Of a DNA stretch of 64,000 nt, positions 31,833 through 59,528 are shown piece by piece. Made by a program: the position numbers and the translations under genes. Position 1 is the stretch's first letter, and each line of letters starts with the position of its first letter. Origin of the DNA: Isosphaera sp. (GTDB lineage: Bacteria > Planctomycetota > Planctomycetia > Gemmatales > Gemmataceae); NCBI GenBank assembly GCA_013822345.1, contig PNKH01000011.1:1-64000 (forward strand), in the 5' to 3' direction. The notes beneath the pieces are model-generated. The model was given only the letters and a program-made list of their open reading frames with translations, was not told where the DNA came from and did no database searches.

Positions 31833-33578
31833 TCACTCCTCGTCGGGGTCGGCCGGGCGGGGTTCCGCGGCCTCGGGCGGCGGGGCGGCAGGGTCGAACG
31901 CGTCGTCCAGGTGCCACACCTGCGCCCCGAGCGCCTCCCCCGCCTTCCGGAACAGGGGGAGTTGCATCAACTCCGCCTTCCGGTCCCGCGGCGCCGCCGG
32001 GGCCTGGCCGGCCCGCCCGGGGCCTACCGATTCGAAGCGGACGACGGCCGGTTTGCCGGTCACCTGCGCGAGCGCGGCCTCGATGCGGCGGGTGTTCTCC
32101 TCGGTCGCACACGAGTCCCGTGCATGACTATACTCGGCGGCGAACGCGATTGCCAGTGAATTTGGCCCGAAAATTGCACTTGACATTGCCAGTTTCAATT
32201 GTGCGGCCAGCATGGGCGACCGCCCGTTGAGGTGGCGGATGAGACGCTGCCACACCTCCGGCAGGGTCGCTCCCGTCAGCGGCACAACATCCGGCGAGCC
32301 GGGAGCGTGAGCGACCGGAGGGGTTGGAGCCTCCGGTCGCTCACGCTCCCGGCTCACCTGTCCGTTTTTTTTTACCCCCACGGCTTCGGCCGGCCCGCCC
32401 CGCGTCAGGGCGTGGGCCAACTGACCGACCGACAGCAACTCGCCCATCCGGCACAATCGCACCACTGCCATTTCGAGCAGCACCAGGCCGTGCGGCGTGT
32501 CGCGCATCCGCGCCCGGGTGTTCGTCCACACCTCAAGCCCGGCGAGGATCGTGTCGAGGCCGGCGGCTTGCGCGTGGGCCGCGACCGACTCGCGCTGCCC
32601 CGGGGCGACGGGGAGTTCCCGCACGCCCGGCCCGCCGCAGGCGACCAGCATCAGCGCCCGCCAGTACCCGACCATCTGGTCGACCAACTCGCCGACTTGC
32701 AGCCCGCGGTCGGCCCACCCGGCGAGGAGATCCAACGCGGCAGCCGGGTCGTGGCGCAGGATCGCGGTGGCGAGTTCGGTCACCCGCTCGTCGCCGGACG
32801 TGCCGAGGACCGCGTGGACCTGGTCGGCGGTCAGCCGGCCGCCGGCGGACGCGAGCAACTGGTCGAGCAGCGACTGCGAGTCGCGCATCGACCCGCCGGC
32901 CCGCCGGGCGATCAGCTTCAGCGCGTCGTCGTCGGCCTCGTAGCCCTCTCGGGAGGCGATCCGCTTCAGCTGCTCGAACACCTTGGCCGGGCCGACGTGG
33001 GCGAAGTCGAACCGCTGGCAGCGGGACAGGATGGTGACCGGGATCTTGCCGACCTCGGTGGTGGCGAAGATGAACTTGACGTGCGGCGGCGGCTCCTCGA
33101 GCGTCTTCAGCAGGGCGTTGAACGCCGGGGTCGAGAGCATATGGACTTCGTCGATGATGTAGACCTTGTAACGGCTCCGGGCCGGCTTGAACCCGACGTT
33201 CTGGCGGATCTCCCGGGCGTCGGCGACCAGGTTGTTGCTGGCCCCGTCGATCTCGACCACGTCCACGTCGTCCCCGGTGGCGACGGCCCGGCAGCTGTCG
33301 CACCGGTCGCACGGGGTCGGGCTGGTCCCCGCCGCGCAGTTCAGGGCCTTGGCGAGGATGCGGGCGGCGCTCGTCTTGCCGACCCCGCGGGCGCCGGTGA
33401 ACAGGTAGGCGTGGGCGACCCGGCCTGCCCGGAGGGCGTTGGTCAGCGCCGCCGCGACGTGCTCCTGGCCGATCAGGTCGGCGAACTGCTGCGGGCGGTA
33501 GCGGCGGGCGACGACGGTGTACTCGCCCCGGGCGGGGTCGGCGGCGGTCGGCGGGGTCGTCCCCTTCGCGGCGGGCAT
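31833..33578 (-). CDS. dnaX: DNA polymerase III gamma/tau subunit, with likely frameshift site
   Basis: A 581-residue clamp-loader ATPase. Residues ~20-240 carry the AAA+ core: Walker A GARGVGKTS, the zinc cysteines (CAAG..CDRCDSC), Walker B IIDEVHM and sensor LSRCQRF. Domain III runs to ~375. At residues 402-405 (VKKN) the mRNA has nine consecutive A, followed by a 25-bp stem; both shifted frames stop within 3-8 codons, giving predicted 407 and 412-residue gamma-like forms. Residues 408-428 are encoded by the repeat forming that stem. The C-terminal 150 residues (tau-specific) would bind polymerase/helicase. Operon with ybaB, recR and rpoN. Confidence 0.95.
   Translation of the reverse strand: MPAAKGTTPPTAADPARGEYTVVARRYRPQQFADLIGQEHVAAALTNALRAGRVAHAYLFTGARGVGKTSAARILAKALNCAAGTSPTPCDRCDSCRAVATGDDVDVVEIDGASNNLVADAREIRQNVGFKPARSRYKVYIIDEVHMLSTPAFNALLKTLEEPPPHVKFIFATTEVGKIPVTILSRCQRFDFAHVGPAKVFEQLKRIASREGYEADDDALKLIARRAGGSMRDSQSLLDQLLASAGGRLTADQVHAVLGTSGDERVTELATAILRHDPAAALDLLAGWADRGLQVGELVDQMVGYWRALMLVACGGPGVRELPVAPGQRESVAAHAQAAGLDTILAGLEVWTNTRARMRDTPHGLVLLEMAVVRLCRMGELLSVGQLAHALTRGGPAEAVGVKKNGQVSRERERPEAPTPPVAHAPGSPDVVPLTGATLPEVWQRLIRHLNGRSPMLAAQLKLAMSSAIFGPNSLAIAFAAEYSHARDSCATEENTRRIEAALAQVTGKPAVVRFESVGPGRAGQAPAAPRDRKAELMQLPLFRKAGEALGAQVWHLDDAFDPAAPPPEAAEPRPADPDEE
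32296..32355 (-). promoter_or_regulatory. 25-bp stem downstream of the dnaX slippery run (GAGCCGGGAGCGTGAGC repeat)
   Basis: The arms 32296-32320 and 32331-32355 are exact complements with a 10-nt loop. On the dnaX mRNA the stem begins 8 nt after the AAC of the slippery run, a spacing normal for frameshift stimulators. The sequence is a variant of a dispersed repeat also seen at 44662, 49782, 53977, 55360 and 59464. Confidence 0.75.
32364..32374 (-). promoter_or_regulatory. A9 slippery run in dnaX
   Basis: Nine T on the plus strand at 32365-32373 give nine A in the mRNA, read as GTA AAA AAA AAC. It contains the heptamer A AAA AAC. One extra A, or -1 ribosomal slip, reaches TGA after 8 further codons; one A less reaches TGA after 3. 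Thermus dnaX uses a nine-A run and transcriptional slippage, and E. coli dnaX uses A AAA AAG with a stem-loop. Confidence 0.7.
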
Positions 33579-34905: not shown

Positions 34906-34973
34906 CCCGTTTAGCCGCGACGCGGAGCGGAGCGCGGACATCCGCGCTCCGCTCCGCGTCGCGGCTAAGCGGG
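34906..34973. repeat. 33-bp stem palindrome at convergent ends
   Basis: The arms 34906-34938 and 34941-34973 pair with one mismatch and a 2-nt loop. It is between the convergent sulfotransferase and outer-membrane protein genes. The first 16 bp of its left arm recur alone at 36075-36090, upstream of the next plus-strand gene. Confidence 0.85.
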
Positions 34974-44661: not shown

Positions 44662-44721
44662 GTCCGAGCCGGAAGCGTGAGCGACGGAGCGAAACCCTTC
44701 GCTCACGCTTCCGGCTCGGAC
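44662..44721. repeat. 23-bp stem palindrome (GTCCGAGCCGGAAGCGTGAGC family)
   Basis: The arms 44662-44684 and 44699-44721 are exact complements. It separates the TIM-barrel gene from the preceding oxidoreductase gene. Same family as the dnaX stem. Confidence 0.85.
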
Positions 44722-49263: not shown

Positions 49264-49803
49264 ATGCTCATCGCACTGGCCGGGCTGCCGGGGACGGGCA
49301 AGAGCACCCTGGCGGCCCGCCTCGCCGACGCCCTCGGCGGGGTGGTGCTCTGCAAGGACGTGGTCCGGGCCGCGCTGTTCCCGCCGCCGGTCCTCGACTA
49401 CTCGGCCGCCCAGGACGACACCGCGATGGCGGCCGTCTTCTCGGCCGCCCGACTCCTCCTCACGGCCGACCCGTCACGGGTCGTGATCCTCGACGGCCGC
49501 ACCTTCCGCAAGCCCCGCCAGGTCGCCGACCTCCTCGCGCTCGCGGACGCCGCCGGCCAACCGGCCCGCGTCATCGAGTGCGTGTGCGACGAGGCGACGG
49601 CCCGCGCCCGCCTCGACCGCGACGCAGCCGCCGGCGGCCACCCGGCCGGCAACCGCAACGGCGACCTGTATGCCGCGATGAAGGCCGGCGCCGAACCCCT
49701 CACCCTCCCCCGCCTCATCCTGGACACCGGCCGACTTCCACCGGACGAGTGCCTGGCGCGTTCCCTGGCGTACCTTGCGGCTCCGTCCGAGCCGGACGCG
49801 TGA
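49264..49803 (+). CDS. P-loop kinase (AAA_33-like)
   Basis: A 179-residue P-loop protein with Walker A GLPGTGKST (residues 7-15). It resembles small nucleoside/sugar kinases or zeta-toxin-like AAA_33 proteins: CKDVVRAALF, VVILDGRTFRKPRQV and RVIECVCDEATARARL (lid region). The last codons (PSEPDA) and the TGA lie inside a palindromic repeat, so the natural C-terminus may have been altered by insertion. The substrate is unknown. It starts 19 nt after the HesB-like gene, probably in the same transcript. Confidence 0.72.
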   Translation: MLIALAGLPGTGKSTLAARLADALGGVVLCKDVVRAALFPPPVLDYSAAQDDTAMAAVFSAARLLLTADPSRVVILDGRTFRKPRQVADLLALADAAGQPARVIECVCDEATARARLDRDAAAGGHPAGNRNGDLYAAMKAGAEPLTLPRLILDTGRLPPDECLARSLAYLAAPSEPDA

Positions 49804-49850
49804 GCGACTGTCTCGCTTCTCCCGTCGCTCACGCGTCCGGCTCGGACGGA
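49782..49850. repeat. 27-bp perfect stem palindrome ending the kinase gene
   Basis: The arms 49782-49808 and 49824-49850 are exact complements (GTCCGAGCCGG..GCGTGAGC family). The left arm contains the last codons and the stop of the kinase gene. Confidence 0.88.
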
Positions 49851-55359: not shown

Positions 55360-55421
55360 GTCCGAGCCGGAAGCGTGAGCGACGGTCTTTGCCTTCCGTC
55401 GCTCACGCTTCCGGCTCGGAC
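55360..55421. repeat. 26-bp perfect stem palindrome (GTCCGAGCCGGAAGCGTGAGC family)
   Basis: The arms 55360-55385 and 55396-55421 are exact complements. It lies between convergent genes that stop at 55352 and 55428. Confidence 0.88.
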
Positions 55422-59463: not shown

Positions 59464-59528
59464 CGTCCGAGCCGGAAGCGTGAGCGACCGGTCGTGCCTG
59501 ACCGTCGCTCACGCTTCCGGCTCGGACG
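59464..59528. repeat. 25-bp perfect stem palindrome (GTCCGAGCCGGAAGCGTGAGC family)
   Basis: The arms 59464-59488 and 59504-59528 are exact complements. It lies between the DHH and SppA-like genes, 5 nt after the DHH stop. Confidence 0.88.

Follow-up and report, generated by a model that had tools for sequence, protein, structure and literature searches.

Title: A conserved nine-adenine run in a planctomycete dnaX as a probable transcriptional-slippage site, with a dispersed palindromic repeat inserted beside it

Introduction

Does the dnaX gene of an Isosphaera species yield a shorter gamma form besides full-length tau and, if so, is it the RNA polymerase or the ribosome that slips on the run of nine A's (A9) carried by this gene? 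The gene lies in a stretch of 64,000 nucleotides, hereafter the window, for which a preliminary description had pointed to the run, to a strong stem next to it and to a likely gamma form. Original work on transcriptional slippage in Thermus thermophilus dnaX is reportedly that of Larsen et al. (2000). In Thermus dnaX, tau is encoded by a single open reading frame (ORF) that contains nine A's, and each of the other two frames is closed by a stop (PMC1088944, PMC5009743). Additionally, transcriptional slippage has been proposed for the dnaX genes of a GeneTack cluster, which consist of two ORFs with a poly-A stretch of 7–10 (PMC3711429); these genes need slippage for tau, whereas tau is the zero-frame product of the window dnaX. 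A literature search on dnaX recoding in planctomycetes found no paper.

Results

The window dnaX occupies positions 31833..33578 on the minus strand, with a full-length tau reading of 581 aa (ORF; TIGR02397, E 1.3e-127) and the domains PF13177, PF22608 and PF12169, the last of which represents domain III (residues 249–387). The A9 run, defined by sequence and conservation, is located at 32365..32373 (minus strand) in codons 402–405, which read GTA AAA AAA AAC and are placed past the end of domain III near residue 387. Two TGA codons close the other frames on the minus strand. Specifically, the frame reached by loss of one A ends at 32354..32356, on the outer edge of a repeat copy, giving 407 residues, and the frame reached by gain of one A or by a −1 ribosomal shift ends at 32341..32343 after 412 residues, within the repeat (GCGTGAGC). 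The run, its place after domain III and the lengths of all three products thus agree with the preliminary description.

Pattern searches of the whole genome, a draft of 226 contigs, find two A9 runs on both strands of 7.47 Mb, one of which is the dnaX run, and A9 runs are low in number across the genus. Under the codon usage of the window dnaX itself, the probability that the residues VKKN are encoded with an A9 is 0.00025 (median 0.02 in 36 genes), and AAA accounts for only 2 of its 15 Lys codons when the run is left out. Together, the two genomic occurrences and this probability place the dnaX A9 well beyond chance. The other A9 of the genome (L059:2550-2558; G000:C43:20049-20057) precedes a small ORF with a signal-like start and is apparently non-genic.

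We collected dnaX genes from relatives and located long A runs in each. Although these relatives are not independent samples and the counts should be read accordingly, the run stands at the same place in all 19 genomes of the genus (18 with A9, one with A8). Outside the genus, 16 further members of the family gave a dnaX match; an A9–A10 follows domain III in 13 of them, and one more has A7. In the other Planctomycetia families, 14 of 18 genomes likewise carry an A9–A10 after domain III. A sequencing or assembly error is unlikely, since the run recurs in the 19 genus genomes. Codons 380–480 contain all but one of the A runs of at least nine in 50 dnaX genes. The same A9 is also carried by dnaX of Gemmata sp. 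IIL30, which is the strain name of the Gemmata massiliana type strain (PMC4672568). On the other hand, family f2 of the same order is without the A run in dnaX in all seven of its genomes (L036, L040, L041, L043, L046, L047 and L049), and this, together with the four genomes of the class that also lack it, implies that gamma is not made by the run everywhere. In f2, a whole sister family, the run has been lost or was never present.

A phylum-wide trait is unsupported, as an even sample outside the class is mostly without the run and contains scattered occurrences. Records labelled Phycisphaerae, Sedimentisphaerales, Lentisphaerae and Kiritimatiellales, among others, have A9–A11 near the same dnaX position (L272, L274, L279, L281, L283, L284, L285, L289 and L290), which hints at a wider or repeated origin. 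In a separate pair of dnaX genes (L125 and L126, from G054 and G050), two A9 runs are found four codons apart at codons 425 and 429, and stops follow each of them closely in the two other frames.

Within the conserved position, the sequence around the run is variable in its residues and constant in its A's. The codon before AAA AAA is GTA, GCA, TCA, GGA, CCA or CTA (V, A, S, G, P or L), and its third-base A is retained in 18 of 19 genus members despite the residue changes; codons ending in A make up 4–21% of those for the same residue in the 18 genes for which this was measured. Between lineages the run differs in phase and length while keeping at least nine A's, with A9 and A10 each occurring in all three phases, and its end remains an in-frame A AAA AAC or A AAA AAG in the majority of relatives. 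In the protein alignment, KKN or KKK is conserved and so are the residues after the run, which implies that tau is made too.

The off-frame stops are likewise shared. In 32 of 38 dnaX genes a stop is reached within 12 codons in each of the two non-zero frames, the joint within-gene percentile averages 0.034, and a TGA placed like 32354..32356 relative to the run is found in many relatives of the genus. When the protein is held fixed, the enrichment of stops weakens (joint p averages 0.13), indicating that part of the stop signal sits in the amino-acid sequence. Conservation of the run, its length and both off-frame stops lends good support to the earlier proposal that the A9 would give rise to a gamma form.

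The strong stem described directly after the run is present, with two arms of 29 nt found by an inverted-repeat search. In the mRNA, the 5' arm corresponds to 32330..32358 and the 3' arm to 32293..32321 (both minus strand); the arms are 97% complementary and 8 nt apart, and their sole mismatch forms a U.G pair in RNA. The stem starts 5–8 nt downstream of A AAA AAC, the 70 nt past the run fold at −63 kcal/mol, and a 60-nt stretch has a z of −7.9. However, the stem is restricted to this genome: no other dnaX examined has it, those of the genus included, and in 36 relatives the 60 nt downstream of the run are no more structured than expected (median z −0.07). We therefore reject the stem as a conserved signal.

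The stem is a copy of a 66-bp palindromic repeat (32293..32358) of the subfamily GGCGAGCCGGGAGCGTGAGCGACCGGAGG-loop-reverse complement, which has 61 perfect copies in the genome. Of the perfect copies, 40 were assessed by a crude ORF and GC3 criterion, which places the dnaX copy alone within a gene and the other 39 outside, several directly upstream of start codons. The repeat arms are also present in other genus members, in none of their dnaX genes. REP-like repeats are short and palindromic, with many dispersed copies that otherwise lie outside genes. The window repeat resembles them in its palindromic form, copy number and mostly extragenic placement, and differs in having a copy inside dnaX. 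The idea that the stem is part of the recoding signal is thus unsupported on two grounds, its absence from all other dnaX genes and its origin from a dispersed, otherwise intergenic palindrome.

The dnaX copy preserves the tau frame because its length is 66 bp. Its GCGTGAGC provides the TGA that closes the 412-residue frame. The TGA of the 407-residue frame falls at the outer edge of the copy, which has GGT there in place of GGC, and the T may be either a mutation in the repeat or a pre-existing junction base. The presence of both stops after the insertion fits continued selection for gamma. Earlier, the stem had been taken for a copy of a dispersed repeat, which holds, and of the GTCCGAGCCGG(A/C).. 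kind, which has to be replaced by subfamily GGCGAGCCGGGAGCGTGAGCGACCGGAGG. As for the suggestion that a mobile palindrome either became a recoding element or arrived beside one, arrival is the better half and the gain of a recoding role the less likely one. Searching the literature for palindromic repeats that affect the frame within coding regions turned up nothing specific.

The GTCCGAGCCGGAAGCGTGAGCGACGG copies elsewhere in the window constitute a sister subfamily, GTCCGAGCCGG(A/C)(A/C)GCGTGAGCGACGG, with four window copies at 44666-44717, 49789-49843, 55364-55417 and 59469-59523; assignment of the dnaX stem to the GTCCGAGCC type was rejected, the two being sister subfamilies. A second kind of dispersed palindrome, at 34906-34973, has arms of 33 nt separated by 2 nt (CCCGTTTAGCCGCGACGCGGAGCGGAGCGCGGA) and lies between convergent ORFs. 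REP-like repeats may be linked to a REP-associated tyrosine transposase, and Y1_Tnp (PF01797) has five matches in the genome.

Discussion

The dnaX A9 is most probably a programmed transcriptional-slippage site of the T. thermophilus type and the source of gamma. We propose that RNA polymerase slips on the T9 template in the linker past domain III and gains or loses A's in the transcript. Tau of 581 aa would be read from mRNAs whose run has nine A's or exceeds nine by a multiple of three, and all others would run into a nearby TGA and give gamma of 407–412 aa; actual slippage and the accumulation of gamma are the inferred step of this reading. The hairpin is a genome-specific insertion of the dispersed palindromic repeat into the linker, after which tau can still be read through and each of the other two frames still meets a stop, and it is not needed for the predicted site in relatives. 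Four observations point to transcription rather than translation: the run is kept longer than a heptamer, stops are kept in both frames where a −1 shift needs just one, phase and length vary while at least nine A's are kept, and the 36 relatives have no downstream structure. Ribosomal slippage may also take place at the same run, given the in-frame A AAA AAC or A AAA AAG in most relatives.

The window gene resembles Thermus dnaX in its nine sense-strand A's, a tau encoded in one ORF, close stops in both other frames and a run located past the clamp-loader part. It differs in being a planctomycete gene with predicted slippage and a repeat inserted just downstream. mRNAs of varying A number, and tau and gamma in comparable amounts, are further traits of the Thermus type.

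Among the alternatives, old transcriptional slippage could be combined with the newly inserted repeat hairpin, which would stimulate ribosomal slippage and alter the tau:gamma ratio in this species. The position, the spacing and the uniqueness of the in-gene copy speak for such a combination, but a flexible linker may simply have tolerated the stem there by chance, and we consider this reading unlikely.

We give still less credence to an E. coli-type mechanism, in which hairpin-stimulated −1 ribosomal frameshifting at A AAA AAC would make gamma in the window species. The window gene does share with E. coli dnaX (PMC5009743, PMC3711429) the gene and product logic, a stem-loop past the shift site and a close −1 stop: its heptamer is in frame, the spacer is suitable, the stem is very stable, the −1 frame closes within eight codons, and an in-gene repeat copy is exceptional (1 of 40). 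However, relatives without excess structure keep the run, and a heptamer requires neither the conserved third-base A nor the other-frame stop, which is kept here together with a run of nine. Additionally, the window heptamer is A AAA AAC and that of E. coli A AAA AAG, and in E. coli A_AAA_AAC is reported to shift far less readily than A_AAA_AAG; very strong stems may be roadblocks (PMC5009743). The window stem also differs from that of E. coli in its lack of conservation, and a GGGGGT, a possible Shine-Dalgarno-like stimulator, stands ~4 nt upstream of the heptamer rather than at the spacing known from E. coli, without a counterpart common to relatives. Finally, a mere coding accident of a lysine-asparagine linker without recoding, although the conserved KKN or KKK would allow it, is scarcely credible and was rejected on the rarity of AAA among the Lys codons, the retained third-base A, the near absence of A9 from the genome and the low synonymous probability.

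Taken together, the window dnaX would join a known type of recoding site, the odd part being the lineage-specific repeat insertion. The inserted hairpin is a natural experiment, in which the same predicted slippage site is followed by a strong stem in one species and lacks it in its sisters. Transcriptional slippage in dnaX, best known from Thermus, would extend to most of the class Planctomycetia, which includes cultured species such as Gemmata massiliana that permit direct testing.
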